From IMG/VR virus record IMGVR_UViG_3300036792_000332, positions 1 through 21,344 of that record: a stretch of 21,344 bases of DNA; one strand, given 5' to 3'. Shown piece after piece: positions 7,999-21,139 of the stretch. Both the position numbers and the translations under genes were made by a program. Positions within the stretch are counted from its first letter, which is position 1. Each line of letters starts with the position of its first letter. This DNA comes from a virus. The notes under the pieces are model-generated. The model was not told where the DNA came from, did not search any database, and was given only the letters and a program-made list of their open reading frames with translations.

Positions 7999-8817
7999 TC
8001 AGTCCTCTCCTGCGGCCTCCAACCTCATCCGGAGGCGCTCGTGGGCAGATTTCACGTTCTTGGGGGCCGGGAGGGCCTCAAGCCCGGAGGGCGAGGCACC
8101 GCCGGTTAGCGGTGTGGGGAGGTTGCGGTTGGCCTGCGCCTTCGCCTGCAGGGCGGCGCCGGTGGCCCCCTGGAGATGGGCCTCGTAGTCGCCGTAGCCT
8201 CGGCGCACGGCCTCGGCGAGCACGTAGGGGTCACGCTCGTCCTCGTCGACGTAGCGGTCCGCCAGCTCGAGCACGATGGTGCGGGTGACCGGGTCGGCGA
8301 CGCCCACCTCGGCAAGCGCGCTCTCCAGGCCCCCGATGGCGACCTGCTGGGCCTGCGCCATGGTCATCTGCTGGATGGGGGCGTTGACCTGCTGGGCGAT
8401 CTGGCCCTGGAGCTGGGCGCCCCACTGCTGGAGCAGCTCCCAGGTGACGGGCTGGGTCGGATCCTCGACGGGGACCGGCGGTGCTGCCGGGGGAGCGGGG
8501 GCCTGAGCTCCGGTCGAGATGAACTCCTGGATCCGCTCCGGGCTGTAGCCCATGGCGGTGAGGGCCTCGACGGTGATCCGGGCGAGACCGTCCTTTGTGG
8601 CCGACATCTGCCAGAGATTGGCGGCCTGGCGGGCGGTGTCTGCGTCGCCGAAGCTCTCCTCGATCAGGCCCTCGTACTCCGCGCTCCTGGTGCGGTAGCC
8701 GGCGGCCTGGCGGCGCAGCTTCTCGACGTAGTCCCGTGGGAAAACGTCCTGGTTTTCGGGGAGGTCGCCCTCCAGGTCCAGCTCCTCGGGCTCCAGGCCC
8801 TCGGTGACTTCTGACAC
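7999..8817 (-). CDS. capsid scaffolding protein, 272 aa
   Basis: The start is GTG at 8815-8817, with a strong GGGGAGG ribosome site seven bases upstream. The protein is acidic at the N-terminus (EPEELDLEGDLPEN). It has a DYVEKLRRQAAGYRTRSAEYEG helix near residues 30-50, a Pro/Ala-rich linker near 105-120, Gln-rich helices (WELLQQWGAQLQGQIAQQV), and a basic C-terminus (KNVKSAHERLRMRLEAAGED). Acidic, helical proteins with a conserved YVEKLR.E...YR segment and a basic C-terminal helix just upstream of the capsid gene are classical internal scaffolds. It should direct procapsid assembly and then leave. No protease motif is seen. The 5' leader carries two copies of the repeated box. Confidence 0.9.
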   Translation of the reverse strand: MSEVTEGLEPEELDLEGDLPENQDVFPRDYVEKLRRQAAGYRTRSAEYEGLIEESFGDADTARQAANLWQMSATKDGLARITVEALTAMGYSPERIQEFISTGAQAPAPPAAPPVPVEDPTQPVTWELLQQWGAQLQGQIAQQVNAPIQQMTMAQAQQVAIGGLESALAEVGVADPVTRTIVLELADRYVDEDERDPYVLAEAVRRGYGDYEAHLQGATGAALQAKAQANRNLPTPLTGGASPSGLEALPAPKNVKSAHERLRMRLEAAGED

Positions 8818-8830
8818 GTGCGTACCTCCC

Positions 8831-8860
8831 CGTTATGACGCCCTCCTGGGGCGTTATGAC
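8831..8860. repeat. two GTYATRAC boxes, 21 bp apart
   Basis: CGTTATGAC occurs at 8831-8839 and again at 8852-8860, in direct orientation. The 21-bp spacing is two DNA helical turns, so a bound protein would sit on the same face. The same 9-mer occurs three more times in other gaps, and an 8-base match occurs once more. Confidence 0.75.
8838..8854 (-). other. perfect 6-bp hairpin in the scaffold leader
   Basis: In the leftward transcript, arms ACGCCC and GGGCGU enclose the loop CAGGA. The arms extend into both flanking boxes. No U-run follows, so it does not look like an intrinsic terminator. It could protect the 5' end, or be a DNA dyad for a protein rather than an RNA structure. Confidence 0.45.
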
Positions 8861-8892
8861 ACTTAGGCGTGTCGGGGAGAGTGTACGCCGGG

Positions 8893-9282
8893 TTAGTAGC
8901 CCTGGCCGGTGCCGGGTGGGGCGGCCGAGGGAGCGCCGACGGGGACCTGGCCCCCGGGCATCGCTGGCGGCATGAGGGCCCCCGCCGCGCTCGGGCCTGC
9001 ACCACCGGCGGCGTGCCAGAAGTCGCAGGTCATGGTCGGGTCGATGGGGCCGGAGACGACCTGGCAGGTGGGCGTGGGGCGGCCGGGGACGAAGTAGTTG
9101 CAGTTGCCGCAGACCGTCGCCGGGTTCTCTCCGGGGCGGTAGTTGGCGACGCCGTTAGGATCGAGCTTGCCGCCCGCTTGAGGACCTCCCGCTGCTCCGG
9201 CCGGCCCCGCGTCCTCGCGGGCGGCCACCTTGTCCCGGACGGCGGCGTTGCGGGGGCTGTCGGTGCGCTTCGGCGGGCTCAC
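8893..9282 (-). CDS. small four-cysteine (HiPIP-like) phage protein, 129 aa
   Basis: GTG start overlapping the upstream TGA (GTGA); it ends with TAA, the only TAA stop among the genes listed here. The core reads ANYRPGENPATVCGNCNYFV, then C73 and C86 before DFW, giving cysteines at 58, 61, 73 and 86 (C-x2-C-x11-C-x12-C). Small phage proteins with a YRxG...CxNCxFF...C...C pattern are common near capsid genes and are often annotated as high-potential iron-sulfur-like or metal-binding. Here the core is flanked by long Ala/Gly/Pro-rich tails that look unstructured. Metal or cluster binding is inferred from the cysteines; its role in the virion is unknown. Confidence 0.8.
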   Translation of the reverse strand: MSPPKRTDSPRNAAVRDKVAAREDAGPAGAAGGPQAGGKLDPNGVANYRPGENPATVCGNCNYFVPGRPTPTCQVVSGPIDPTMTCDFWHAAGGAGPSAAGALMPPAMPGGQVPVGAPSAAPPGTGQGY

Positions 9283-9512
9283 GAGTAGTTCGATCCTTTC
9301 CCGGCCTTCACGGCCTTCAGTTGCTTCTTGGCCTCTTTCTCGGCGATCTTATGGTCCTTGGCGTGTTCCTGGTTGTGGGCGATGGAGTCGGAGAGGTGGC
9401 GGATGGTCATCTTCCGGTCGGAGGCCGTCACAGGCATCGTTGTGTAGCCCTTGCCGCCCTTGTACTTCGCCGGCCGGCGGTACTTCGTCTCCTCGATCGC
9501 TTTGTTACTCAC
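9279..9512 (-). CDS. basic Lys-rich microprotein, 77 aa
   Basis: The start chosen is the GTG at 9510-9512, just downstream of the preceding TGA; the longer frame merely shadows the neighbour. The 77-residue product is strongly basic: KYRRPAKYKGGKGY near the N-terminus, then RKMTIRHLSDSIAHNQEHAK and a Lys-rich helix (KIAEKEAKKQLKAVKAGKG). The helical C-terminal half with regularly spaced Lys and Glu could form a coiled coil or bind nucleic acid. I recognise no family. It is one of six short genes packed between portal and scaffold. Confidence 0.7.
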   Translation of the reverse strand: MSNKAIEETKYRRPAKYKGGKGYTTMPVTASDRKMTIRHLSDSIAHNQEHAKDHKIAEKEAKKQLKAVKAGKGSNYS

Positions 9513-9514
9513 GG

Positions 9515-9712
9515 TCAACCTCGCATCTTTCCGAGGGTCTGGGCGAGGCGAGCCCGCTTTGCCGTGAGGCCATTGCCCTTCGCCGCGCGTGCGGTCCATG
9601 CCTTGTCGATCTTGCCGCCGTGCACCGCCCCGGCCTTCTTCGCCGTTGCCGTGAGGGCCCCCGGGTGTGAGATGGCCGATTGAATCCACTTGTTGCCGGC
9701 CGTGGTCAGCAC
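9515..9712 (-). CDS. conserved phage microprotein with WIQ-x-AI-x2-PGALT motif, 65 aa
   Basis: The start chosen is the GTG at 9710-9712, which gives a 7-base overlap with the upstream gene; another GTG lies five codons earlier (9727). The 65-residue protein reads NKWIQSAISHPGALTATAKK early and ARLAQTLGKMRG at the end. A short peptide of the form KWIQ.AI..PGAL...A..AG ... ARLA.TL is found in very many tailed phages and their host prophages. Its function has not been established to my knowledge. The product is basic and mostly helical. The family resemblance is from memory of the motif, not from a search. Confidence 0.78.
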   Translation of the reverse strand: MLTTAGNKWIQSAISHPGALTATAKKAGAVHGGKIDKAWTARAAKGNGLTAKRARLAQTLGKMRG

Positions 9713-9903
9713 CTCCCCAAGGCGCACGCCGGGCACGTGACCCGTCCTTGGCCCAGCGTGGTCTCTATGGAGCCCAGCGTGGTCTCTATGGAGCCCAGCG
9801 GCTCCTCGTAGCCTGCGAACATTTGCCCGCACTGGGGGCAGGGAAGCCAAAAGTAGCCTGTCAACCAGGCCCGAAAGCGTCTCAGCATTCGGGGCGCTCG
9901 CAT
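9706..9903 (-). CDS. zinc-ribbon microprotein with duplicated insert, 65 aa
   Basis: ATG start at 9901-9903, two bases after the upstream TGA. The N-terminus is basic (MRAPRMLRRFRAWLTGYF), followed by CPQC (C22, C25) and later CPAC (C57, C60), the two knuckles of a zinc ribbon. Between them lies LGSIETT repeated twice in tandem (residues 36-49), encoded by a 21-bp exact DNA duplication. The typical ribbon has a shorter loop here, so the duplication lengthens the linker without breaking the frame. Small zinc ribbons may bind nucleic acid or stabilise assembly; the partner is unknown. Confidence 0.75.
   Translation of the reverse strand: MRAPRMLRRFRAWLTGYFWLPCPQCGQMFAGYEEPLGSIETTLGSIETTLGQGRVTCPACALGRC
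9752..9800. repeat. 21-bp tandem repeat, 2.3 copies, inside a coding region
   Basis: The 21-bp unit starting CCCAGCGTGG occupies 9752-9772 and 9773-9793 without mismatch, and seven bases of a third copy follow. Because 21 is divisible by three, it adds whole LGSIETT heptapeptides to the zinc-ribbon protein. Exact identity implies recent replication slippage or selection. Confidence 0.9.
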
Positions 9904-9905
9904 GG

Positions 9906-10247
9906 TCAGTAGCCGATGGTGCCGCCGCGGCGGGGCTTGAGGGGGCCGCGCCCGACCTGGCCGTGCATCGTCTCGCCGCGCATGTGCTTGTTCAGGGGGA
10001 GCTCGCTCCCCGCCCCCTTCGTCCCCGAGAGGCCCGGCGTGCCGCCGGTCGGGTTCGCCGGGGATCCCCCGCCCCGGGTCTGGCCCATCTTGGTCATGCC
10101 CACCTGGGCGCGCCCCAGCGGAATCTTGCGGGTCCGGGAGTTCTTGCCCCCGGTGCGCTCCCCGACGACCTGGCCGAAGATCTGCGGCTTGGAGCCGAAC
10201 ATCTTCTGCCCGGTGTAGGGCATCCCGCCCGAGCGGGCGGCCTTCAT
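9906..10247 (-). CDS. basic Gly-rich hypothetical protein, 113 aa
   Basis: The start chosen is the ATG at 10245-10247, with GAGGA about eight bases upstream. A GTG at 10262 overlapping the previous TGA (GTGA) is the alternative and adds five residues. The product is basic and glycine-rich (GSKPQIFGQVVGERTGG, GRGPLKPRRGGTIGY), with few hydrophobic residues, so it is probably extended or disordered rather than globular. Such composition fits a nucleic-acid or capsid-lining peptide, but no family is recognised. It sits in the microprotein run between portal and scaffold. Confidence 0.7.
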   Translation of the reverse strand: MKAARSGGMPYTGQKMFGSKPQIFGQVVGERTGGKNSRTRKIPLGRAQVGMTKMGQTRGGGSPANPTGGTPGLSGTKGAGSELPLNKHMRGETMHGQVGRGPLKPRRGGTIGY

Positions 10248-10258
10248 GGCGCCGTTCC

Positions 10259-10435
10259 TCACTTCGCACCGCCTTTCGCCTTGACGGCCTCGATGGCCTT
10301 GTTGCCGCCGCCCTTGGATTGTCGCACGTGCATGGGGAGGTTCTTCTGGGGGCCGGTCTCGTCCGCCCAGCGCTTGGCGATCTCCGGGTGCTTCGCCCAC
10401 ATGAGGCGGCGCTGCGCCTCGGACTGGAACGGCAC
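10259..10435 (-). CDS. conserved phage microprotein with SEAQRR...HPEIAKRWADET motif, 58 aa
   Basis: The GTG at 10433-10435 begins one base after the portal stop. The protein begins PFQSEAQRRLMWAKHPEIAK and continues RWADETGPQKNLP, with a basic C-terminus (VKAKGGAK). The pattern [K/E]AQ.R.M.A..PEIA.RW...T....LP is a widespread short peptide family in tailed phages, frequently annotated only as hypothetical. Its amphipathic helix with conserved Trp and Pro suggests a protein-binding peptide. The function is unknown to me. Confidence 0.8.
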   Translation of the reverse strand: MPFQSEAQRRLMWAKHPEIAKRWADETGPQKNLPMHVRQSKGGGNKAIEAVKAKGGAK

Positions 10436-10436
10436 G

Positions 10437-12590
10437 TCAGTGGCCCATGCTGGCCGCCTGGGTGTCCGGGCTGACGCCGGGGATCGGGCCCGGCTGGCCG
10501 GCCTTGCCGCCCTGGATACCCGCCATCTGGGCGATGCGGCCCATGAGGTCGCCGGGCTGGGCACCGCCCTGGCTGCCCGCGGAGCCGGGCTGCACGGAGC
10601 CGGGGGCACCGACGGGGCCGATGGCGCCGAGCTGGCCCTGCATGAGGGCATCGTGGAGGTCGCAGTGGGCGTCGATGATGGCCTGGATATGCGGGCCGGC
10701 CTTGCGGAAGTCGTCGGACTTGCGCAACCTGTTGTGAACGTAGGAGTGGACCACCATGTTCTGCCATTTCTGGATCTGGATCAGGTTGCCCTGGAGCATC
10801 TGGTCGTTCTCCCACATGGCCTCGCGGGTGTCCTCGTCGATCTCCCGGATGAGCAGGTCGGTTCCGGGGAGGTCGATGTAGCGCAGGATCGTGGCGGGGT
10901 CGCGCACCAGGCCCGCCTTCTGCAGCTCGAGGGCGATCTGGACCCGGGCGGCCTTGGAGCGGGGGAGAGCCGACTCGGGGGTCACGTGCACGTCGAGCTG
11001 GCGGGGGAGGTCGGCTCCCCGGAACTTCTCGACGTCCATCCGGTCGGCCTCCTCGGACCAGGTCCGCACGAGGCGCTTCTCGGTCCAGAACTGGCGGATC
11101 AGCATCAGGTGCTGCCAGCCGAGGGTGGCGATGCCGTCGGACAGCTCCTTGACCGAGATGTTGCCGGGGACGTCGGCGGCCTCCTGGGCGGCCAGCAGGG
11201 CGGCGGCCGAGAGGCCCGAGAGGACCTCGCCGCGGGTGGCGGGCGAGACGGCGGCGCGCTCACCCATCTCCTTGTCCACCCGGTTCATGGTCTCCTCGAA
11301 GACCTGCGCCCAGCCGGCGTTGGGCATCTCCCAGTGGGGGGGCTGGCCAATCTGGCTGTAGCCGATCGCCTGCACGCGGGTGTTCAGCTTGCGGTCGTCG
11401 ATCGAGCCCTTGGGGTAAAGGAGCTTCGGCACGAGGTCGTTGCGGATCTCGGCCTCCCGGCAGCGGGCGTCGTTGTAGTCGGCCTGCATGCTGATGAGGT
11501 CGTCGACCCAGGTCCGGCCCTCGCGGCGGAAGATGCCGGGCATGAGGTTGAACTGGACGAACGGCAACTTCCCGTGGTCGTAGGGGTAGGGTTTGGGGTC
11601 CTCCAGGATGGTGAGGCCGCTGTACGTGACGACGAGGCCCTCGGGCCTGCTGCGGGAGCCGGGGGGCATCCAGAACTGGTGGACGACGACCTCCTCGTGC
11701 ACCTCAGGCTGGCGGGCGGCGGTGCGCTCCAGGAAGCTGCGCAGCTCGTGGATGAGCGAGATGCCGGGAGCCTGCTCCGTCGTAGCCGGGAGGCGGCCGT
11801 AGCGCTCCCAGACCTCCTCTTTGGTGAGGGTGACGGAGCGGATGGCCCAGCGGGCGCCGTCCATGGAAGTCGCCGAGGGGTCCACGACGAGCTCGAAGTG
11901 GGGCACGACGTCGACCACCACGTCGCCCTGGTGGACGTCCTTGGAGACGAGGGCCTTGCGCATCTGGGGTCCGCGGTTGCCCAGCATGCGCACGGCCATG
12001 CGGTCGGTGGGGTCGGGGACCTTGAGGAGGGCCTCCTCGGTGACGGTGCCCTGGACCTGGCCCAGCTCTGGGTTCCAGGTGCACTGCAGGTACGCCCACC
12101 CGACAGGAACGACCCAGAAGTAGAGGGCCGTTATGCGGGTGTCGATCTGGATCCGGTTTGCCTCGCTGACGAGGATCCGGGTGCCAACCTTGGCTGCCCC
12201 CACGTCGTCCTCTTCGTCGGTGACGGGGCGGCACTCCGGCGTCGGCGACGACTTGGTCAGGCGGGCCACGGCACGCTCGACGTGGCTCCCGACCTTGTTG
12301 ATCGTGATGCGGGGCCTGCTCTCCCGCCGGTACGGGTTGTCGAAGTTCTGCCGAAGGCGCCGGGAGTAGGGGTCCCAGGTCATCCAGTGCTCGCCGAGCA
12401 AGAACATGAGGTTGAGTTTGGGTCGGAACTCCGGTCTGGACTTTGCGCCTAGTTTGTACCGCCGCATGATGGAGGTGAGCATCCCCTTGGGGTCGTCGGG
12501 GATGAGGTAGGGGTTCTTGGCCTGGCCCCCTTCGAGGGCCGCACCCGGGGGCATCAGGCCCCCGCCGGTGTCCTTCCAGCCGCTTGCCAT
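10437..12590 (-). CDS. portal protein, P22-like, 717 aa
   Basis: A 717-residue protein, close to P22 gp1 (725 aa) and much longer than siphovirus portals. It begins with ATG abutting the upstream TAG in frame. The N-terminal third has FRPKLNLMFLLGEHWMTWDP and RPRITINKVGSHVERAVARL, matching the start of P22-type portals (an early helix, then W, then an R..N.i...v). The central region includes VVVDVVPHFELVVDPSATSM and KPYPYDHGKLPFVQF, both typical of this family. The C-terminal region is helical (barrel-like), with a Gly/Pro/Gln-rich tail. It should form the dodecameric DNA-entry ring and bind the terminase and neck proteins. Confidence 0.92.
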   Translation of the reverse strand: MASGWKDTGGGLMPPGAALEGGQAKNPYLIPDDPKGMLTSIMRRYKLGAKSRPEFRPKLNLMFLLGEHWMTWDPYSRRLRQNFDNPYRRESRPRITINKVGSHVERAVARLTKSSPTPECRPVTDEEDDVGAAKVGTRILVSEANRIQIDTRITALYFWVVPVGWAYLQCTWNPELGQVQGTVTEEALLKVPDPTDRMAVRMLGNRGPQMRKALVSKDVHQGDVVVDVVPHFELVVDPSATSMDGARWAIRSVTLTKEEVWERYGRLPATTEQAPGISLIHELRSFLERTAARQPEVHEEVVVHQFWMPPGSRSRPEGLVVTYSGLTILEDPKPYPYDHGKLPFVQFNLMPGIFRREGRTWVDDLISMQADYNDARCREAEIRNDLVPKLLYPKGSIDDRKLNTRVQAIGYSQIGQPPHWEMPNAGWAQVFEETMNRVDKEMGERAAVSPATRGEVLSGLSAAALLAAQEAADVPGNISVKELSDGIATLGWQHLMLIRQFWTEKRLVRTWSEEADRMDVEKFRGADLPRQLDVHVTPESALPRSKAARVQIALELQKAGLVRDPATILRYIDLPGTDLLIREIDEDTREAMWENDQMLQGNLIQIQKWQNMVVHSYVHNRLRKSDDFRKAGPHIQAIIDAHCDLHDALMQGQLGAIGPVGAPGSVQPGSAGSQGGAQPGDLMGRIAQMAGIQGGKAGQPGPIPGVSPDTQAASMGH

Positions 12591-12917
12591 CTAGGGCTCG
12601 GGGACGTAGAAGCGGGGGTCCATGTCGTTCAGCGGCACCTCTTCCTGCACGAGGCCGGTGGGGTCGCGGTAGAAGAAGGTCGACGTCGGGTCGGCGGGGG
12701 ACTCGGGGGCGCCTGCCTGCTGGGGAGCCGCGGGGTGGAACTCCCGGTACTGGCCGAGGTTGGCGGCCGCCACGCGGTCGAGGGCCTGCTCGTAGTGGTG
12801 GTGCTGGGTGTTGAGGATGGCCGCATAGATGGACTTCGCCAGCAGGAAGCCGGCGATGAAGGCGACCACCTCGCCGAGGACGAGGGCGAGGACGAGGAAG
12901 ACGTCAAGCAGGGACAT
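12591..12917 (-). CDS. small membrane-anchored protein next to the portal, 108 aa
   Basis: ATG start at 12915-12917, preceded by AAGAAGG, overlapping the upstream gene by 14 bases. Residues about 4-27 are a continuous hydrophobic segment (LLDVFLVLALVLGEVVAFIA) interrupted by one Glu, so one transmembrane helix is likely. A short helix and a Pro-rich, probably cytoplasmic or virion-exposed tail follow (HPAAPQQAGAPESP ... FYVPEP). It ends with TAG directly followed by the portal ATG. A holin-type, membrane-targeting or virion-inserted role is possible. The buried Glu and single helix do not identify a family. Confidence 0.72.
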   Translation of the reverse strand: MSLLDVFLVLALVLGEVVAFIAGFLLAKSIYAAILNTQHHHYEQALDRVAAANLGQYREFHPAAPQQAGAPESPADPTSTFFYRDPTGLVQEEVPLNDMDPRFYVPEP

Positions 12918-13236
12918 GGGCCTTCTTCCTCGTCGCCGTGGCCTTCGCCGCGAGCGCGGCCTCCAGCCCGTCGGCGACCGTCTGGAGGCGCTCGATCTCC
13001 AAGGCGTGCTCGGCGACGAGGCCCCCGACCTCCTCCAGCTTCACGAGGAGGGCCGCCATGTCCTCCGGCGAGCCCATGCCGCAGAGCCGGCCGGCGTCGA
13101 TCACGCAGGGCACGCAGAGGAAGAGGCCCCCTTCCCCTTCGATCGAGATGCCGAGGTCGATCAGGTCCGTGTTGGTCATGCACAGGTAGCAGCCGGACTT
13201 GGCCGCCTCGACGCCGACGAAGGCAACCCGCTGCAT
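12904..13236 (-). CDS. zinc-ribbon plus coiled-coil protein, 110 aa
   Basis: The ATG at 13234-13236 overlaps the upstream TGA by one base (TGATG). Four cysteines form two CxxC knuckles, C16/C19 (GCYLC) and C41/C44 (LCVPC), consistent with a zinc ribbon. After GMGSPEDMA the rest is helical with heptad-like hydrophobic spacing (LLVKLEEVGGLVAEHALEIE), then an Ala/Lys-rich basic end (KATATRKKAH). A zinc-bound dimeric or trimeric coiled coil is the simplest reading. No known phage family is recognised. It lies between two small genes just upstream of portal. Confidence 0.75.
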   Translation of the reverse strand: MQRVAFVGVEAAKSGCYLCMTNTDLIDLGISIEGEGGLFLCVPCVIDAGRLCGMGSPEDMAALLVKLEEVGGLVAEHALEIERLQTVADGLEAALAAKATATRKKAHVPA

Positions 13237-13490
13237 CAGACGTGGCCCAGCTCGTCGGGGGGAAGCGGCTCGGGCAGGGGTTCGGGGGCCGGATCGGATT
13301 CGGCTGGAATCGGCAGGGGCACGTCGAGGGCCGGGGGGGCGGCGGGGGCCGAGGGCTCGCCGACGGTTTCGAGCACGGCATGGACGGGCGCGATGGCGAG
13401 GTCTGTCTTCTCCCCGGGAACTATCTCGACGACGTGGATCTCCTTCTCGTCGCCGTGCGTGAACAGGTGCAGCAGGTGGCGGACTCCCAT
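13236..13490 (-). CDS. small Pro-rich acidic hypothetical protein, 84 aa
   Basis: ATG start at 13488-13490 with a near-ideal ribosome site, AAAGGAG, five bases upstream. The first 45 residues look folded (RHLLHLFTHGDEKEIHVVEI, PGEKTDLAIAPVHAVLETVG). The remainder is a Pro/Glu-rich, probably disordered tail (PALDVPLPIPAESDP ...). The strong ribosome site suggests a well-translated product. No family is recognised and no function can be assigned. Confidence 0.7.
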   Translation of the reverse strand: MGVRHLLHLFTHGDEKEIHVVEIVPGEKTDLAIAPVHAVLETVGEPSAPAAPPALDVPLPIPAESDPAPEPLPEPLPPDELGHV

Positions 13491-13501
13491 GGCTTCTCCT
13501 T

Positions 13502-13765
13502 TCAGTGGATGAAGTGGACGACGATGTCGCCGAGGACCAGGACGCCGCCGGCGAGCAGCAGGCGGAGGGTGCGGCGGTGGATCTCCTTCGCCCGCTCGAC
13601 CAGTACCCCGACATGGGCCTTATGGCCGTCGAGGGTGGTGACGAACTCGCGGGAGTGCTCCTCGACGCATGTCTTCGCTGCCTGGTGCAGGAGGGCCTCG
13701 TAGGTCACGGCGCGGCGAGCCGCCTCGTCCTCGGCGGGCTTGCCTACCAGGGCGGTGAACGGCAT
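13502..13765 (-). CDS. small tail-anchored membrane protein (XhlA-like topology), 87 aa
   Basis: The ATG at 13763-13765 overlaps the upstream TGA by one base. The longer open frame upstream is a shadow. Residues 1-60 are helical and charged (DEAARRAVTYEALLHQAAKT, HKAHVGVLVERAKEIHRRT). The last 21 residues are one hydrophobic segment (LRLLLAGGVLVLGDIVVHFI), so it is probably a tail-anchored membrane protein. A short coiled coil plus a C-terminal helix is the layout of XhlA-type holin accessory proteins. No endolysin gene lies in the window, so a lysis role is only a possibility. Confidence 0.72.
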   Translation of the reverse strand: MPFTALVGKPAEDEAARRAVTYEALLHQAAKTCVEEHSREFVTTLDGHKAHVGVLVERAKEIHRRTLRLLLAGGVLVLGDIVVHFIH

Positions 13766-14076
13766 CAGGCCCCCGCCACCATGTTCCAGCGTGAGGAGAT
13801 GACCCCGTCGATCTGGGCGTCGGTCGTCGTTGCGTCGCAAGTGAGGGCCTGAGCGGCGCACAGCTCAACCCAGCCCGGGGCAGCGTTGGCCGCGGCACCG
13901 GTCTGGCCGTACCTCATGGCGAGGACAGCCCGGGCGGGGTGCTGCGGGTTCAGGTTGTTGGGGTCCTCGACGTAGATGAACCCGGCGTTGACGATCAGCG
14001 CCATCTCCACCCGCTGGGCGAAGTTGGGCGTGGTCACGGTCGGGTGGCTGGCGGTGTACTCGGTTGCGTAGCTCAC
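13765..14076 (-). CDS. small phage virion-associated protein, 103 aa
   Basis: The GTG at 14074-14076 is chosen because AAGGAG sits five bases upstream. The frame is open further upstream only as a shadow of the fibre gene. The protein reads NFAQRVEMALIVNAGFIYVE, HPARAVLAMRYGQ, then ATTTDAQIDGVISSRWNMVA. This matches a small phage family (r.aR v..Alv..A....e.....H..R..lA ... tDa.I...v...WN..AG) often found next to fibre or capsid genes. Its role is not established. It follows the fibre gene closely and is probably co-translated with it. Confidence 0.78.
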   Translation of the reverse strand: MSYATEYTASHPTVTTPNFAQRVEMALIVNAGFIYVEDPNNLNPQHPARAVLAMRYGQTGAAANAAPGWVELCAAQALTCDATTTDAQIDGVISSRWNMVAGA

Positions 14077-14087
14077 GTGGACTCCTT

Positions 14088-15812
14088 CTAGGCGGCGGAC
14101 TTCCACTCGACAGTGCTGACTTTGGCGACGATGTCGTTGGTCGCTGCTCCCACCCCGGCGGCCTGGCCGGTGATCTTCAGGACGTTGGTGGAGGACAGGG
14201 TTAGGCCGGCGAGCTGGCCGGCGGCGGTGTAGGCAGCCAGGGCGGCGCCCTCGACGGTCAGGTCCATCTTGTAGCGGACAGTGGCGGCATCCACCCGCAT
14301 GATGAGGACGTCGAGCACCCACGAGGCGGCGAGCGAGATGCTGAGGGCCCCGGTGTCGAAGATGGCGGTTCCCCCGAAATACAGCCGCACCTCCCGCGTG
14401 GCAGTGCCGCTGGAGACGAAGGTTCCCCCGTACTGGGCCTGCAGCTTGTCCCCGTTGTTGGCGAGGGTCGAGGCGGCGATCGTGTCCGAGTAGAGGTCGG
14501 TCTCGACGGTGGTGGAGTTGCCGGCGTCGGCGAAGTGGTCGAAGAGGGTACCGCCCACCTTGGCCGGGGTGCCGGACGTCCCCGCCTGGGTTTGCAGGTA
14601 GCCGTTTCCCGCAGGTGTGACGTTGGCACCGATGATCTTGAGAGAGGTGTCGCCCTTCAGGACGTCGGCGATGGAGAGGTAGTTCGAGGTTCCGGCTGAG
14701 GGCGCGTTGACCTGCCCGATCATGATGTTTCCCGAGCCGGTCGTGATGTTGTTGCCGCACCCGAAGCCGATGAGGATGTTGGTGCTTCCCGTCGTGAGCC
14801 CGGTCCCGATCGCCCCGCCGAGGATCAGGTTGTTCGTTCCGGAGACGGCGTTGTTGTAGGAGTTGCCCCCGACCACGGTGTTGCCGTTGCCGACCTGAAG
14901 AGCCGACCCGGCGTTGTAGCCGATGAAGACGTCCGTGGTCCCCGCATAGAGGCTCTGGCCCGCGTTGGCCCCGACCGCGAGGCACTGGCCGAGACCTGCC
15001 GCCAGTGCAGCCAGGGCGTTGGCCCCCAGGGCGACACAGTTGCTCTGGGCCTGCGCCGAGGCCAGTGCCCTGACCCCGACCGCAAGGTCATTCGATCCCG
15101 AGAGGTTGCTGGCGAGGGCGCCGAGACCGGCCCCGTAGTTGGCGGTGCCGCCGTCACGGATCTCACCGAGCAGGGTTGCGGCCGACCCCTTGAAGCGAAC
15201 GACGGCGTTGGCCTGTGTCACCACCTTGACCGAGAGCGCCGCGATGGCACCGCTGAAACCCGTGCCGACGATCGAGAGCCCAGCCGTCGAGACCGCCGTC
15301 AGGATGACGGAGCTGCCGGCGAATCCGGAGTTGGTCGAGATGGGGTTGGAGGCCACCCCGCCGAGGTTGAGCGTGAAGCTTCCGGCGGTAACCGAGGTCG
15401 ACCGGAAGTTGATCCGGTAGACGGTGCCGATCACGGCGGCCGGGAAGTTGGCAACGGTGGCGAGGACGGTCGAGGAGGCCAGGGTCCCGGTGAGGGTGGT
15501 GGCGCTGCCCACCCACTCGGGACCGGGGAGTGTCCAGTCGGCGGGGAGGTTGAAGTTGCCGGGCGAGGCGAGCTGCTCGGTCCCGAGCGTGGCGAGGTCG
15601 TTGATGCCCCGGAAGGTCGTCTGGGCATCGGTCGTGTCCACGGTGAGCACGTCGACAGCACCGCCCGCGCGGTTGACCTTGAGGGTGGTGAGGTCGTTGG
15701 CGGCCGGGGTGACGGTGAGGTCGCCGGTCATCGTGTCGCCGGCTCGGAGGACGTGCAGGGTGTCGGTGGCGAAGCCCGGGAACGGGGGGGCGCCGAAGGG
15801 AGGGATGGCCAT
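14088..15812 (-). CDS. putative tail or head fibre with beta-roll repeats, 574 aa
   Basis: ATG start directly abutting the upstream TAG in frame. Near the N-terminus is LRAGDTMTGDLTVTP, the GDTMTG.L element typical of phage fibre proteins. A beta domain follows (residues about 85-210). Next, at about 225-375, come short repeats of the form N.xavG..al....g..N.alG (LAVGVRAL, VALGANAL, LAVGANAG, VFIGYNAG, TVVGGNSY, LILGGAIG, ILIGFGCG, IMIGQVNA), like the YadA-head/left-handed beta-roll pattern of trimeric adhesins and fibres. The C-terminal 150 residues (VETDLYSDTIAASTLANNGD, VRLYFGGTAIFDTG) are a beta-sandwich common at fibre tips. Host recognition is likely. Unusually, it lies between terminase and portal. 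Confidence 0.87.
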   Translation of the reverse strand: MAIPPFGAPPFPGFATDTLHVLRAGDTMTGDLTVTPAANDLTTLKVNRAGGAVDVLTVDTTDAQTTFRGINDLATLGTEQLASPGNFNLPADWTLPGPEWVGSATTLTGTLASSTVLATVANFPAAVIGTVYRINFRSTSVTAGSFTLNLGGVASNPISTNSGFAGSSVILTAVSTAGLSIVGTGFSGAIAALSVKVVTQANAVVRFKGSAATLLGEIRDGGTANYGAGLGALASNLSGSNDLAVGVRALASAQAQSNCVALGANALAALAAGLGQCLAVGANAGQSLYAGTTDVFIGYNAGSALQVGNGNTVVGGNSYNNAVSGTNNLILGGAIGTGLTTGSTNILIGFGCGNNITTGSGNIMIGQVNAPSAGTSNYLSIADVLKGDTSLKIIGANVTPAGNGYLQTQAGTSGTPAKVGGTLFDHFADAGNSTTVETDLYSDTIAASTLANNGDKLQAQYGGTFVSSGTATREVRLYFGGTAIFDTGALSISLAASWVLDVLIMRVDAATVRYKMDLTVEGAALAAYTAAGQLAGLTLSSTNVLKITGQAAGVGAATNDIVAKVSTVEWKSAA

Positions 15813-16289
15813 CTAGGTCCCGATCCAGCAGACGCCGTCGCCCGCGTTCCCGTTCACGTAGAGGCGGTTGAGGTTGTCGATGTTCACGCCGGTGGCCTGG
15901 CCCGCCTGGAGCTGCATTCCGTTGGCGGTTGTCACCGCTGAGTCGCCGATGACCACGGTGCCGGCGTTGGCGGCGAGGGCCTGGACGACGGCACCGGCCG
16001 CTCCGGTGAGGGCCTGGCTGGGGAGCTGCACGGCGGTACCGGTGACGGCAACAGTCTGCCGCCCGTACTGGAGGGTGGTGGGGGCTGCGGTGAGGACGAG
16101 GAGCGTGCCGTCGGTGAGCGTCTTGAGGGTCCGCAGCACCGAGCCGGCGTCCCGGCCCACGACCTCGATCGAGTCGCCACCGGCTGCGCTGATACCGCCG
16201 GAGACGATGGCGGAGATGTTGACCTTGGGGGGCGTAGCGCCGGGGTCGGCGATCCCGAGCGTGGTGAGCCAGGACCACAGCAGCTCCAT
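15813..16289 (-). CDS. virion/appendage protein with C-terminal structural motif, 158 aa
   Basis: The ATG at 16287-16289 is preferred because AGGAAG lies six bases upstream. A GTG at 16325 would add 12 residues but has no ribosome site. The N-terminus is helical (MELLWSWLTTLGIADP). A beta-rich body follows, and the C-terminus (VVQALAANAGTVVIGDSAVT, then NGMQLQAGQATGVNIDNLNR, LYVNG) matches a phage virion pattern (v.L.aN.g.v.vG...V....G..L.pG....i...nl..lyv.g). Such modules occur in small head or tail decoration proteins. It ends at a TAG joined to the fibre gene ATG, so the two are coupled. Confidence 0.8.
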   Translation of the reverse strand: MELLWSWLTTLGIADPGATPPKVNISAIVSGGISAAGGDSIEVVGRDAGSVLRTLKTLTDGTLLVLTAAPTTLQYGRQTVAVTGTAVQLPSQALTGAAGAVVQALAANAGTVVIGDSAVTTANGMQLQAGQATGVNIDNLNRLYVNGNAGDGVCWIGT

Positions 16290-16331
16290 GGCGGCTTCCT
16301 GGGACGGGCCGCCGAGCGCAACCACGAGGGC

Positions 16332-16640
16332 CTAGCCGATCTTGTAGTAGGTGACATTGAGGATCGTCGTGCCGGCGGTCTGGATCACCTTGATCTTGGA
16401 GAGGTCGCCGTAATACATCTGCTCGCCGGCGGCGGCGTTCAGCAGCAGCATCCCGACCGTGGCCGTGGGCGTGGAGCCGTCGTCGGTCCAGCGGGCGTTG
16501 CTCCCCTCGGCCTGCAGGAGGGCGATGGTGGCACCCTTCGGGATGGACGGCAGCCCCTGGGCGGGCGTGAGCGAGCCGGCGGCTACCTGGGCGTAGCCGA
16601 GGGGGGTGAGGATGCGGTCGAGGTAGACGAAGGTCGGCAC
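16332..16640 (-). CDS. small virion protein, leaderless start, 102 aa
   Basis: GTG start at 16638-16640, only six bases after the -10-like TAGACT, so the mRNA is probably leaderless. No ribosome site is visible. The 102-residue protein has LTPLGYAQVAAGSLTPAQGL, RWTDDGSTPTATVGMLLL and YYGDLSKIKVIQTAGTTILN ending VTYYK. The RW.DDG..PTAtvGm.l ... GdLskikvi ... lnv.YYk signature is recurrent in small phage virion proteins, often encoded near fibre or decoration genes. It begins the leftward fibre block and lies back to back with the rightward gene at 16740. Confidence 0.82.
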   Translation of the reverse strand: MPTFVYLDRILTPLGYAQVAAGSLTPAQGLPSIPKGATIALLQAEGSNARWTDDGSTPTATVGMLLLNAAAGEQMYYGDLSKIKVIQTAGTTILNVTYYKIG

Positions 16641-16739
16641 GCAGCGAGTCTACGCCGTCGCGGGCGTTGGCCCTGGCAGTGCAGCGTTATGACACGTTAT
16701 GACGCCCTGGGCGCTGCGTCGGGGGCGTAGACTGCCCCC
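16641..16739. promoter_or_regulatory. divergent leaderless promoter region
   Basis: This 99-bp gap separates two genes pointing away from each other. Leftward, GGCGTAGACT (TAGACT at 16647-16652) lies six bases before the GTG at 16640. Rightward, the identical GGCGTAGACT (TAGACT at 16728-16733) lies six bases before the GTG at 16740. A -10 hexamer six or seven bases upstream of a start codon is the usual arrangement for leaderless actinobacterial mRNAs. No good -35 consensus is seen on either side. Two GTYATRAC boxes lie between the promoters, where one protein could control both. Confidence 0.65.
16685..16703. repeat. two GTYATRAC boxes, 10 bp apart
   Basis: CGTTATGAC is at 16685-16693 and again at 16695-16703, a direct repeat with one helical turn between starts. 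The second copy is followed by the dyad CGCCCTGGGCG, as the box at 8831 is followed by CGCCC...GGGCG. Confidence 0.8.
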
Positions 16740-16740
16740 G
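16720..16740 (+). promoter_or_regulatory. perfect inverted repeat bracketing a -10 element and start codon
   Basis: Seven-base arms CGGGGGC (16720-16726) and GCCCCCG (16734-16740) flank GTAGACT, which contains the predicted -10 hexamer. The last base of the right arm is the G of the GTG start. The dyad could be an operator covering the promoter, or a GC-rich promoter that needs a special factor. The matching leftward promoter lacks the arms. Confidence 0.6.
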
Positions 16741-17234
16741 TGCCCGACTTCCCCGTGCCGGCCCCCGTCAGCCCCTCCGGGCTCCGCATCCCCAGCGTGG
16801 CCCTTCTCTCGACGCTGACCATCGCCGCTGTGGAGACGGTCGTCCTCGCGCTGCCGATCCCGGCCGGGCTCCTCTACGTCGGGGCCAGCCTCGACATCGA
16901 GGCGATAGCGACGCTCTCCGTGGGGGCCAACGTCACCTGGGGGGTCCGGGTCGGGACGACCGGCACCACCGCCGACTCTCTCTTCGCCACGCCGGGGGCG
17001 GGGGCAGCGACCGCGATGAGCTTCTTCAAGGCCCTGGTGGCGGTGCGGATAGCCGGAGCGAACGGCACCCTGACGGAGTCGGCCCACGCCTCCAGCGACA
17101 CGTCCAGCCAGGCGGTGGCGGGGGCCGCCAAGACCTTCCTGAACATGGGGGTCGCTTTGTTCCTCAGCCTCACCGCCTCTGTGGACGCCGGCACGCTCAC
17201 CGTCGCCAACGCCCGGATCACCCAGACCTCCTAG
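16740..17234 (+). CDS. small beta-rich protein on the opposite strand, leaderless, 164 aa
   Basis: GTG start six bases after TAGACT, with no ribosome site. This is the only rightward gene within the leftward late block. The 164-residue protein is rich in Ala, Val, Thr and Gly: SVALLSTLTIAAVETVVLAL, LLYVGASLDIEAIATLSV, WGVRVGTTGTTAD, then FLSLTASVDAGTLTVANARI. It looks like one beta-sandwich domain, similar in character to small phage decoration proteins and to the product at 19118-19516 (a general resemblance only). Its TAG shares the palindrome CTAG with the TAG of the convergent large terminase. Codon composition matches its neighbours. A separately controlled virion protein is the best guess. 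Confidence 0.75.
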   Translation: MPDFPVPAPVSPSGLRIPSVALLSTLTIAAVETVVLALPIPAGLLYVGASLDIEAIATLSVGANVTWGVRVGTTGTTADSLFATPGAGAATAMSFFKALVAVRIAGANGTLTESAHASSDTSSQAVAGAAKTFLNMGVALFLSLTASVDAGTLTVANARITQTS

Positions 17235-18784
17235 TCCTCCTCCAGGCCCGGGTAGAAGCCGTCGTCGTGGTCGGCGTCGGGGATGCCGGTCACGGGATGG
17301 ACCCGGACTCGGAGGTCCTGGCGGTCAAGCTCGGCCCCCACCCGTTTCCACAGACCTTTCTCGCTGAAGTCGGGGAGCTTGTCCCGGACGGACCAGTCGG
17401 GGGCGTCGAAGCTGAAGGCGTACATCACGACGTCGGCCCTGTCGAGGCTCTTCACCCCCCGCCGCCGGGCCTGCTCCTTGGTCTCGACGGCGATCTTGCC
17501 GTTGGGGAAGCCGTACTTGAGTGCGCCGAGCTGAGATTTCATGAGGTGGTCGTCCACCACTTCCGGACCGAAGGCCAGCTCGCCCCGCTCGAAGAGGCCG
17601 CGGAGGCGCCACCACCACATGCTGCGGAGGTTGACGTACTGCACGCCGACGTCGACGCCGCCGCGGACGACCAGGAGGCGGTGCTCGCCGCAGGCGTTGA
17701 CGGCGGACTCGTAGGCTCCAGCGCCCGGACCGTCCCCGTCGTAGACGACGTGGGCGGGGTCGAAGGCGAGGACGCGGGGCTTCACGATCGTCTTCCAGAA
17801 GATGTCCGAGCGCATGGAGGGGAAGCCTTCGAGCTTGGTCAGGCGGTTGCCCTCCCGGTAGGCGATGGTGTTCTCGTTGTCGCCGTAGGAGGCGAGGTCG
17901 ATCGCCATGACGCGGGGGCCGGCCCTCAGCCTGTTGCCGGGGGCGGCGTTGACCCACGAGGTGGAGATGAGCTTGTCCTCGCCGATCGTCCAGAACTGGG
18001 CCTCCACCTTCGTCGTCCAGACGTAGGTGCCGGGGCCCTGGCCCGCCGCGATGAGGTCTTGGAGGTACGCCTCGTCGATGAGGCTCGCCGTGGGCGGGAG
18101 CGGCTCCTTGGTAAAGTTGGGGGTCTTCACGGCCGAGATGCGGATGACGTCCGTCGAGGGGAGCTGGCAGAGGTCGTAGGCCCAGCTCGTGTCGTCGGTG
18201 GGGTTGAAGATGGCGAGGATGCGGCAGTCTCCGGAGGCCCGCAGGCCGCGCAGGCCGTCGGCGAGGGTCTGGTCGACGGAGGTCGCCTCGTCGACGACGA
18301 TCAGGATGTGGGGGGCGTGATAGCCCTGGGTGGACTCCTGGGAGTCGGGGGCCCGGCCCACGATGTAGTGGTTCGGACCACCGTCGATGCGGAGGGCGCC
18401 GGGCAGGACCCGACCCTCGATCGGCCAGGCGAGGTGCGGGAGGTGGCCGCGCAGCTCGCCCCACAGCTCGTCGCGGAGGTGCTCGAAGCTCGAGGAGAAC
18501 GTGACGACCTTGGAGTCGGGAAAGCAGTCGTAGAAGCCGAGGGCCATGAGGGGTGCCAGCCACGTCTTCCCCGATGAGTAGCACGACGGGACGGCAACGA
18601 CGGCGCGGGGGGTGCTGAGGGCCCGGGCGATCTCGGCCTGGATGCTCCACAGCTTGCGGTCGGTGAGGGCCGTCTCGGCCCAGAAGGCGAGGTCGGTGCG
18701 CCCCCGCTCGCGGGCCTCGTGGCGGGCGGCGGCCTTCTCGTACTGCTCGTAGGCGTAGGCGAGCTCGTCGCCCAGCGTGCTCAT
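17231..18784 (-). CDS. terminase large subunit (packaging ATPase-nuclease), 517 aa
   Basis: The ATG at 18782-18784 overlaps the upstream TGA (ATGA); a longer start would intrude into the upstream gene. In the N-terminal ATPase, a Walker A-like PSCYSSGKT lies at residues 66-74, Walker B ILIVVDEA at 160-167 with the Asp-Glu pair, and a coupling motif RILAIFNPTD at 188-197. In the C-terminal nuclease, RVMAIDLASYGD places a first acidic residue at D296, VVYDGDGPGAG gives D349/D351, and SLDRADVVMYAF gives D448/D451, the pattern of an RNase H-fold nuclease. The first Gly of the P-loop is replaced, as often in terminases. It should translocate DNA into the head through the portal and cut the concatemer. 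Confidence 0.94.
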   Translation of the reverse strand: MSTLGDELAYAYEQYEKAAARHEARERGRTDLAFWAETALTDRKLWSIQAEIARALSTPRAVVAVPSCYSSGKTWLAPLMALGFYDCFPDSKVVTFSSSFEHLRDELWGELRGHLPHLAWPIEGRVLPGALRIDGGPNHYIVGRAPDSQESTQGYHAPHILIVVDEATSVDQTLADGLRGLRASGDCRILAIFNPTDDTSWAYDLCQLPSTDVIRISAVKTPNFTKEPLPPTASLIDEAYLQDLIAAGQGPGTYVWTTKVEAQFWTIGEDKLISTSWVNAAPGNRLRAGPRVMAIDLASYGDNENTIAYREGNRLTKLEGFPSMRSDIFWKTIVKPRVLAFDPAHVVYDGDGPGAGAYESAVNACGEHRLLVVRGGVDVGVQYVNLRSMWWWRLRGLFERGELAFGPEVVDDHLMKSQLGALKYGFPNGKIAVETKEQARRRGVKSLDRADVVMYAFSFDAPDWSVRDKLPDFSEKGLWKRVGAELDRQDLRVRVHPVTGIPDADHDDGFYPGLEED

Positions 18785-18933
18785 GGGGTTATTGCGAGGA
18801 TCTCCAAGCGCAGCTTCCACGCGCAGCCGCACTGCTCGCAGGGTGCCCAGCCGTCGGGGTCGGGCTGCTCCAGCGGCACGAGGCAGGCGGGGCAGAGACC
18901 CTCCGAGAGAGCGGCCACGGCGGCATCAGTCAC
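18781..18933 (-). CDS. zinc-ribbon microprotein upstream of large terminase, 50 aa
   Basis: The GTG at 18931-18933 overlaps the upstream TGA (GTGA), and the gene ends in ATGA overlap with the large terminase, so it is translationally coupled on both sides. The 50-residue product has CPAC (C14, C17) and CEQC (C32, C35) knuckles around LEQPDPDGWAP, then a short hydrophobic strand (KLRLEILAITP). This is a minimal zinc ribbon, possibly binding DNA or the terminase. A longer frame starting at 18999 would run through the neighbour and is not preferred. Confidence 0.75.
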   Translation of the reverse strand: MTDAAVAALSEGLCPACLVPLEQPDPDGWAPCEQCGCAWKLRLEILAITP

Positions 18934-19112
18934 GAGTGTCGCCTGCGGCGTCGGGCGAGGGCGGCACGGCGGGCGGCACGGCAGCAGGACCTCCGGCACC
19001 CGTAGATCATGTAGCCCCGCTCGGTGCCGTGGGGGATCTCCCTCAGTCCCTGGGCCACCTCGGCGAGGACCTGGGCCTTCCAGCGGTTCACCCGGGCGGT
19101 CGAGACGGCCAT
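18930..19112 (-). CDS. small HGT-x2-GY cysteine-rich protein, 60 aa
   Basis: The ATG at 19110-19112 starts five bases after the TAG of the upstream gene. Residues 28-44 read HGTERGYMIYGCRRSCC, followed by a strongly basic Arg tail. Small actinophage proteins with HGT..GY..y.CRC..C are common and probably bind zinc. Here the usual CRC..C is CRR.CC, so one cysteine is shifted and metal binding is uncertain. The Arg-rich end suggests nucleic-acid contact. It is coupled to the zinc-ribbon gene by GTGA. Confidence 0.75.
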   Translation of the reverse strand: MAVSTARVNRWKAQVLAEVAQGLREIPHGTERGYMIYGCRRSCCRAARRAALARRRRRHS

Positions 19113-19117
19113 CGGTC

Positions 19118-19516
19118 CTAGGAGACCTGGGCGTTGTCGATGAAGACGATGAGCTTGGACTGGGCGCCGGCCACGGAGACCCCGCCGGCGCTGTTGGCCT
19201 TCACCTGGGCCTTGATCGTGTTCGTCGCCCCGGCGGCGAGAGTCCCGGAGGCGTAGCCCACGACGGTGCCCCCGCCGAGGGAGTTGTCGACTGTCTGCAG
19301 CAGCGGCGTGGAGCCGATGACGGTCGAGCCCAGCAGGATCTGGCCCGTGATGCGGTTCAGGCCTACGGCGGCCGTGGTGATCTCCGCGTGGAGGATGAAG
19401 ATCGCGAAGAAGGGCATCGGCTGGGGCGGGTTCTCGGTGATCGCCACGCCGGTGAAGTCGGCGAAGGAGGCGGTGAGGGTCAGGGCGGTGGGAGCGGGGG
19501 TCTCGAGGATCCGCAT
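19118..19516 (-). CDS. small beta-rich putative virion protein, 132 aa
   Basis: ATG start with GAGAGG seven bases upstream. The 132-residue product is all-beta in character: LTLTASFADFTGVAITEN, MPFFAIFILHAEITTAAVG, GQILLGSTVIGSTPL, TNTIKAQVKANSAGG, SKLIVFIDNAQVS. Such proteins are often single-domain virion decorations or fibre components. No family is recognised with certainty. It has its own long upstream gap with a -10-like TAGACT and a regulatory box, so it may head a transcript including the large terminase. Confidence 0.78.
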   Translation of the reverse strand: MRILETPAPTALTLTASFADFTGVAITENPPQPMPFFAIFILHAEITTAAVGLNRITGQILLGSTVIGSTPLLQTVDNSLGGGTVVGYASGTLAAGATNTIKAQVKANSAGGVSVAGAQSKLIVFIDNAQVS

Positions 19517-19540
19517 CGGGGGGCCTCTCTGCGAGCCGAA

Positions 19541-19550
19541 CGTACGTACG
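19541..19550. repeat. perfect palindrome CGTACGTACG
   Basis: A 10-bp self-complementary sequence placed at the predicted start of transcription for the gene at 19118-19516. Operator is the simplest guess; chance is possible. Confidence 0.5.
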
Positions 19551-19572
19551 GGGCGAGTCTAAGGCCTGGGGG

Positions 19573-19581
19573 CGTTATGAC
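19573..19581. repeat. single GTYATRAC box
   Basis: CGTTATGAC, read on the minus strand as GTCATAACG followed by CCCCCAGG. The box at 8852-8860 is followed on the same strand by CCCCAGG, so the two share an extended match. It lies 11 bp upstream of the TAGACT element. Confidence 0.7.
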
Positions 19582-19730
19582 ATGCGGAATGTGGGCTGAG
19601 TCGGCCGCGGGGCTCTAGCTTCAGGCAGCCGCCCGTCATCGTGGGCCTGGCCCCCGAATCCCGCCGAATCCCTCGGATCGCATCGCAGAACTTCCCACTC
19701 TCGGGTTCGTATACCAATCGAGCGTTAGGG

Positions 19731-20408
19731 CTACGCCTGAGAGGCGCCGTCAGGGGTGGGAGATGACGGGCTTGTCGGGTCTGGGGGGGTGCTCGGCTCT
19801 CGTGGTTGCGACGATTCGCCCTGAGGGGGTGGGACAGGGCTGGTGAGTGCGGCCCGTAGCTCGCCATCACCATCTCGTTCAGCCTGGATCGTCACCGCCT
19901 TCGAACGCATCCGGCGGGTGATCTCGGCCTCCAGGTCGTCGGGGCCTACGCCGAGCAGCTCGGCGAGGCGTGCCTTCGCAGCGTCCAGGCTCGGGACCTG
20001 CTGGCTGAGGCTCGTCGCCTCGCCCGCTTCGAGGCGGTACATGGAGAGCGCCGTCTGCACGCCGGCGAGGGCGTCCTTGCGGCTCTTCTCGTCGAGGTCG
20101 GGGTAGAAGCGCAGGAAGTCGTCCATGAGCAGGGACGCTGCGACCATCAGGTCCGTTCTCAGCTTCGCCCGCAGGGCCGCCGCCGGCGTGTTGCGGGCCT
20201 CCTCGACGCTCATCGGAGGCGTCCGCAGCCGGCGCTTGTCCTCCCGGCGGAGCCAGGTCTCGATGGTCGGAGCGGGGATGCCTGTGGCTGCTGAGGCCTC
20301 CTGGCAGCGCCCGACCATGCTCGGCAGGCGGGAGGCAAGGGCGAGCTCGAGGGCCTCGGCGCGCTGCTCCGGGGTGTAGGGGCTGACGAACGGCGTGCCG
20401 ACGGTCAC
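19731..20408 (-). CDS. putative terminase small subunit, 225 aa
   Basis: The GTG at 20406-20408 is preferred: a -10-like TACGAT lies seven bases upstream, which suits a leaderless start, and the protein then begins TVGTPFVSPYTPEQRAEALE. A GTG at 20483 would add 25 unconvincing residues. Residues about 34-58 form a helix-turn-helix (RCQEASAATGIPAPTIETWL), then a helical core (AALRAKLRTDLMVAASLLMD, KDALAGVQTALSMYRL) that could oligomerise, and a Pro/Ser-rich disordered tail. Small terminases have this DNA-binding-then-oligomerisation layout and come first in the packaging block, as here. A transcriptional regulator is a less likely alternative. Confidence 0.8.
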   Translation of the reverse strand: MTVGTPFVSPYTPEQRAEALELALASRLPSMVGRCQEASAATGIPAPTIETWLRREDKRRLRTPPMSVEEARNTPAAALRAKLRTDLMVAASLLMDDFLRFYPDLDEKSRKDALAGVQTALSMYRLEAGEATSLSQQVPSLDAAKARLAELLGVGPDDLEAEITRRMRSKAVTIQAERDGDGELRAALTSPVPPPQGESSQPREPSTPPDPTSPSSPTPDGASQA

Positions 20409-20415
20409 GCCTGCG

Positions 20416-20421
20416 ATCGTA
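20416..20421 (-). promoter_or_regulatory. -10-like element for a leaderless small terminase
   Basis: TACGAT on the minus strand lies seven bases before the GTG at 20408. It keeps the T, A and final T of the -10 consensus. No -35 consensus is visible at the expected distance, so confidence is modest. Confidence 0.45.
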
Positions 20422-20670
20422 GCCCGCCACGTAGTCTCAGCCGGCCAGGCTGTCAGTGAGGCTGTCGGGCTGTCCGCTCGCACGCTCGCTGGGAAGGCGT
20501 GGGGCCTTCGGCGCTCGCTCTATGCCCTCCGTCTGGTTCCCGTTGGAGCTCACCCCGGATGCACGTGCCGCCAGGCGTGCGAGCTAGCCCGGCTCTGACC
20601 CGTGGTTAGCCCAGCGGCTCAGCGCCGCGGGTAGCTCTCTTCGAGGGCGGTGCGAGCCTACGCCAAGACT

Positions 20671-20678
20671 GTCATAAC
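20671..20678. repeat. single GTYATRAC box near the rightward promoter
   Basis: GTCATAAC matches the core of the other boxes, with the flanking G changed to C. It lies 17 bp upstream of the -35 of the rightward promoter, a position suited to an activator or an auxiliary operator. Confidence 0.55.
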
Positions 20679-20695
20679 CAATCTGCCCTGAGACC

Positions 20696-20723
20696 TTGAC
20701 TTGGTATACGGGATTGGTATACG
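20696..20723 (+). promoter_or_regulatory. rightward promoter of the recombinase cluster
   Basis: TTGACT (20696-20701), a 16-bp spacer and TATACG (20718-20723), with TGG before it acting as an extended -10. Transcription would start near 20730, about 33 bases before the ATG at 20763. This is the best sigma-70-type promoter in the window. Confidence 0.65.
20701..20723. repeat. paired TTGGTATACG operators overlapping the rightward promoter
   Basis: TTGGTATACG occurs at 20701-20710 and 20714-20723, 13 bp apart, covering the spacer and -10. A third exact copy in opposite orientation is at 19709-19718. Each contains the palindrome GTATAC. A repressor bound here would block RNA polymerase. The second copy also serves as the extended -10, so part of the similarity may be promoter constraint. 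Confidence 0.65.
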
Positions 20724-20762
20724 CTACGGGTGTCAGCAGGAATCGAGCGAAGGGAGCGGACC

Positions 20763-20969
20763 ATGAGCAGCTTGTCACCACAGTCGCAGTTGACGACGAC
20801 GAAGGAGCAGATGACATCGGCACGGGACTGGGTCAAGGACTGCATGTGGGCAGACATCGAGAGCCCCGAAGAGGTTGACGACATGAGTGACCTGCAAATC
20901 CAGAAGGGCGTGATTGACCACTACGAGGGCGGCTGGAGCCAGTTCGTCGAGGACGGAGGGCTGGCATGA
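20763..20969 (+). CDS. small acidic hypothetical phage protein, 68 aa
   Basis: The ATG at 20763 is preferred over an upstream GTG at 20730, because AAGGGAG lies six bases before it and the upstream codon is at the predicted transcription start. The 68-residue product is acidic: TTTKEQMTSARDWVKDCMWA, then MSDLQIQKGVIDHYEGGWSQ and FVEDGG. The I...Y.GGW..F..D ending is a familiar feature of small actinophage proteins of unknown function. It heads the rightward operon and overlaps the next gene by ATGA. A regulatory or recombination-accessory role is possible but not shown. Confidence 0.75.
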   Translation: MSSLSPQSQLTTTKEQMTSARDWVKDCMWADIESPEEVDDMSDLQIQKGVIDHYEGGWSQFVEDGGLA

Positions 20970-21139
20970 GAGCGTGGTGGTGCGTCACCTATCGACCGAT
21001 CCCCACCGATCCCCGAGTCCTTTGGGCGTACGTGGTGTCCACCACGTCAAACCAGGCGGCGAAGACAGTGGCCCAGCGGCATCCCGGCTGCGTAATCGTT
21101 GAGGTTGAGCAGGACCACTTCGCCAAGATCCCGCTGTGA
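20966..21139 (+). CDS. microprotein upstream of recombinase, 57 aa
   Basis: A 57-residue frame starting with ATG that overlaps the previous TGA (ATGA) and ending in a TGA that overlaps the recombinase GTG (GTGA). The sequence is compact: MRAWWCVTYRPIPTDPRVLW, AYVVSTTSNQAAKTVAQRHP, GCVIVEVEQDHFAKIPL. Alternating hydrophobic strands around one helix suggest a small alpha/beta fold. The two-sided overlaps strongly support it as a real gene. No family is recognised; its position suggests an accessory to the recombinase, such as a directionality factor, but that is a guess. Confidence 0.75.
   Translation: MRAWWCVTYRPIPTDPRVLWAYVVSTTSNQAAKTVAQRHPGCVIVEVEQDHFAKIPL

Follow-up and report, generated by a model that had tools for sequence, protein, structure and literature searches.

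The six copies of the short box GTYATRAC in this virus record are probably operators of one DNA-binding protein, placed, as far as the sequence indicates, at putative promoters of the leftward structural operons and in a divergent control gap at the right end. The window analyzed here is the entire record, a linear stretch of 21,344 bases that is probably a fragment of a larger genome. Judged on six sites and on predicted transcription starts, the box set is real, in that it appears non-random, promoter-linked and operator-type. The operator reading rests on an invariant core, placement in gaps only, a −10-like hexamer in each boxed gap, box pairs at helical spacings of 10 and 21 bp and a variable distance between core and hexamer. 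An earlier note on this DNA had suggested a phage-wide operator set, with a repressor or late activator that could control every late transcript. Operators are the best fit to these features. Control of late transcripts fared less well: the boxes are not clearly confined to them, and the box at 20671 lies in a divergent gap that also precedes rightward genes.

Structural-looking genes run mostly leftward across the window. Genes were called from codon usage and open reading frames, and their starts are predictions. Family matches are found for the portal (10437-12590; phrog_156, E 1.3e-30), the major capsid protein (6742-7995; phrog_14242, E 3.8e-44) and the large terminase (17231-18832; phrog_2). 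A putative scaffold gene (7999-8817) was assigned by its position before the capsid gene, and a putative small terminase gene (19731-20483) by position and a weak HTH match under the Pfam cut-off. Three small rightward ORFs (+) follow from 20763, the third with a resolvase N-terminal domain (PF00239). Within the leftward late cluster, one structural-looking gene lies on the opposite strand (16740-17234, +); it has a leaderless-type putative promoter of its own, and its protein gave no family match. The two comparisons made lent no support to paralogy among the small boxed genes.

Five boxes, exact matches to CGTTATGAC, are assigned to the − strand. The copy at 8831-8839 reads GTCATAACG on that strand and adjoins the Shine-Dalgarno sequence GGGGAGG of the 7999-8817 gene, and the copy at 8852-8860 lies 21 bp from it. 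A second pair, 10 bp apart, occupies a divergent gap (16685-16693 and 16695-16703), and a single copy is located upstream of the 19118-19516 gene (19573-19581). The sixth copy, at 20671-20678 on the + strand, matches the core GTCATAAC exactly and has a differing 3' flank, GTCATAACCAATC. GCCC directly follows four of the six boxes, counting either strand. Both searches return exactly these six, with no further GTYATRAC elsewhere in the window; the positions, the two spacings, the GCCC flank and the near-palindromic core are thus as the earlier note had described them.

The note's claim that the boxes are confined to gaps is borne out as well. By the gene calls, all six are located within four large non-coding gaps (8818-8892, 16641-16739, 19517-19730 and 20484-20762) that total 667 nt. 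In 100 dinucleotide shuffles of the entire window, 0.36 copies were expected and six were never reached. When only the gaps were shuffled, the mean was 0.012 boxes and the maximum 1 (n = 3,000). To allow for the post-hoc choice of motif, any repeated 8-mer or 9-mer was counted in the shuffled gaps: no 8-mer reached six copies in 3,000 shuffles, and a 9-mer reached five copies in one. The 19.1 kb of coding DNA holds no box; this absence carries little weight, because only 0.03 copies are expected there under synonymous-codon shuffling. One-mismatch copies of GTCATAAC are absent from the gaps, and the only two in the window (1789 and 4693) sit in genes. The core is therefore essentially invariant.

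A −10-like hexamer, which had escaped the earlier note, accompanies the boxes in all four gaps. The sequence GCGTASRCT, that is GCGTA(G/C)(A/G)CT, has four copies in the window, each of them in a boxed gap; 0.036 copies are expected in these gaps, and none of 2,000 shuffles reached four. The copy GCGTACACT (8880-8888, −) is 19 nt upstream of the 8852 box. In the divergent gap, GCGTAGACT is found on both strands (16647-16655, −; 16725-16733, +), each copy ending 6 nt before a GTG start (16640 and 16740, respectively) in a leaderless layout. GCGTAGGCT (20655-20663, −) faces leftward to the small-terminase-like gene. The boxed gap without GCGTASRCT contains a fifth hexamer, TAGACT (19556-19561, −), 12 nt downstream of the 19573 box; TAGACT is present just three times in the 21 kb, always in boxed gaps. 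A TANNNT −10 motif and common leaderless transcripts have been reported for actinobacteria (PMC3898074, PMC4895711). The hexamers fit this motif, on the assumption of an actinobacterial host, and a promoter role for them is putative.

The position of the boxes relative to the hexamers differs from gap to gap. We infer all start sites, taking each as 7 nt after the hexamer. On this basis the paired boxes of the divergent gap are located at about −46 to −63 for the promoter at 16652 and −37 to −54 for that at 16728, the single boxes at about −25 to −32 (19561) and −23 to −30 (20660), and the boxes of the 8885 promoter at +14 to +42, downstream of its predicted start. A core promoter element of fixed spacing is ruled out by the varying box-to-hexamer distance, and the spread from about −63 to +42 therefore points to operators. 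A repressor is more likely than an activator, and repression or a roadblock is favored because a protein bound at −23 to −32 or +14 to +42 would be in the way of RNA polymerase. The divergent-gap sites at −37 to −63 would also suit activation. That the boxes bind an activator, encoded by phage or host, to turn on the structural promoters late in infection is an unlikely explanation of the set: paired sites do precede both leaderless promoters of the divergent gap at such distances, and a scan of 8000-21344 found no full sigma-70-type promoter, so the hexamers may need help, but an activator is difficult to reconcile with the boxes close to 19561 and 20660 and with those downstream of the predicted start in the presumed scaffold/capsid leader.

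Four of the six copies flank terminase genes, and recognition by the terminase for packaging was considered. In contigs L081 (8447-8497), L082 (1933-1983) and L084 (8093-8143), three copies of CGTTATGAC, spaced 21 bp apart, immediately precede the large terminase gene. However, these repeats encode an SVMTD-type peptide repeat, formed by the last codons of the reading frame upstream of that gene, and in our record the boxes extend across 12 kb and are associated with promoters. We consider packaging sites extremely improbable.

The orientation of the boxes invites a comparison with the stoperators of cluster A mycobacteriophages (L5, TipsytheTRex), which likewise are copies of one short sequence found at promoters and between genes. 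The L5-type stoperator consensus is the 13-bp GGTGG(A/C)TGTCAAG. It has no match in the window at up to two mismatches, in agreement with the earlier note, which had called the sequences unrelated; the box set may work like stoperators, yet we do not class it with them because this 13-mer is absent. Stoperators further differ in sequence and length, belong to an unrelated phage group and number more than twenty, whereas six boxes with a near-palindromic core are known from this probable fragment of 21.3 kb. In cluster A a repressor with HTH and stoperator domains halts elongation, whereas no regulator or repressor gene was identified within the 21.3-kb window. The orientation of stoperators correlates with transcription (PMC9283540), and the boxes behave similarly: five read GTCATAACG in the leftward direction of the structural genes, and the sixth faces the rightward genes. 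Six consistent orientations out of six have a two-sided chance of about 0.03, a value to be read with the small number and the nearly palindromic core in mind. By analogy, transcription blocking of the stoperator type is possible. The full form of this model, in which a box-bound repressor also arrests transcription elongation between genes in an orientation-dependent manner, would account for the 8831 and 8852 copies downstream of their hexamer; it is of low probability given only six sites in 21 kb and a 16685/16695 pair that also precedes a rightward gene.

The start-associated sequences (SAS) of cluster K phages are also short repeats before genes, mostly in one orientation (PMC3203893), as are the boxes. 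SAS adjoin start codons, whereas most boxes do not, and the box sequence differs and is without the 17-bp inverted repeats. The 13-bp SAS sequence GGGATAGGAGCCC has one match with two mismatches, at 8890, versus 1.47 expected by chance.

Two boxes fall in the leader of the presumed scaffold/capsid operon (8818-8880, −). A single-sequence prediction folds this leader into a three-way junction, with the Shine-Dalgarno GGGGAGG base-paired to CUCCCC; the folding z is −4.44 (−4.26 on repeat) and falls to −2.2 without the CUCCCC arm. In a sliding scan of 63-nt segments (n = 1,420), z was <= −4 in just three, including one on the opposite strand with its start at 8821. Stretches with z of −4.0 and −4.7 are located at 20581-20643 in the control gap and 21151-21213 at the start of the resolvase-like gene, both on the + strand. 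An Rfam search gave no match. In this model, folding of the leader can mask the ribosome-binding site. Because CUCCCC is encoded between the −10-like hexamer and the predicted start, read-through transcripts would carry the arm and those from the local promoter would lack it. In phage T4 gene e, the late promoter forms part of the arm that sequesters the ribosome-binding site (PMC3014915). Both cases appear to share a 5' arm of the Shine-Dalgarno-hiding helix that precedes the local promoter start; T4 gene e has a single hairpin, whereas a three-way junction is predicted here from one sequence.

This fold and the consistent orientation along the leftward transcript raise the question of whether the boxes act in RNA, for instance by joining parts of structured leaders or by signalling antitermination in read-through transcripts. 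We regard this as very unlikely. The coding strands of the other boxed gaps that were folded have little or no excess structure (z −1.45 and 0.02), so the leader fold does not explain the box set overall, and in three gaps the boxes are upstream of the predicted start. It is quite unlikely, too, that one box family has both roles, as operator at the structural promoters and as linkers of a junction hiding the ribosome-binding site in read-through transcripts only. If true, such a dual DNA and RNA role would give a two-layer timing of capsid synthesis.

Other repeats were observed near the boxes and in remote phages. TTGGTATACG is present three times in the window, only in boxed gaps (20701-20710 and 20714-20723, +; 19717-19708, −), versus an expectation of 0.0015 in gap shuffles. 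Its two + strand copies overlap a possible rightward promoter, TTGACT-N18-TACGCT (20696-20725), and this pair resembles a distinct early operator. On the − strand, the 20671 box has ATTGGT in common with TTGGTATACG. A search with the doubled TTGGTATACG pattern matched one AT-rich contig, which is without boxes or homologues. The Microbacterium phage Shocker (L008, 1-33252) carries 29 copies of CTTTACAG, distributed over both strands of its 33 kb and many of them inside genes, far above the expectation from base composition. In contig L014, three tandem-like copies of the 26-nt GGTGCGGAGCCTGGTGCTCGACC, 39-40 bp apart (3195-3299), occupy the gap before the capsid gene of this remote relative.

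Relatives of the phage are distant. No match at the DNA level was found among 50,697 phage records, and the best named relatives are the actinobacterial phages Shocker, Jasmine and DS1 together with environmental Podoviridae, at about 21-30% identity. Single-sequence scans with the portal, capsid and large terminase found no relatives. A hand-made DNA pattern for a conserved capsid motif then yielded capsid homologues, all remote, in viral contigs (14) and genome contigs (one), the closest being that of L014 (39% over 171 residues); a portal-motif pattern found nothing. In 19 records, five of them complete phages, the boxes never occur as a set, and a flanked box was seen once in each of two fragments. 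With structural proteins only about 20-39% identical, this absence neither supports nor refutes the operator reading. A scan of viral contigs for box pairs at 10 bp matched one unrelated phage, and a scan at spacings of 12 to 39 bp yielded 39 matches, about the chance estimate. In the GC-rich contig L061 one pair is close to a terminase gene; with only three GTYATRAC sites in 32 kb, we judged it to be chance. A literature search with the bare octamers returned papers that looked incidental.

As operators, the boxes would act as follows. The hexamers would belong to promoters of the host sigma-70 type, of which two would be leaderless. Spacings of 10 and 21 bp place the paired sites on one face of the DNA, and the protein may bind these sites cooperatively on that face. 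Once bound, it would act mainly as a repressor or roadblock, and it is presumably encoded by the host or outside the fragment. Operators and leaderless promoters are each established, and the box set is another case of a known general kind. If the operator reading is true, this would be an independent, sequence-unrelated dispersed operator set in a deeply divergent podovirus-like lineage with probable actinobacterial hosts, in which transcriptional control has been little studied, and the box together with the GCGTASRCT hexamer would provide a ready-made putative promoter map for the phage.
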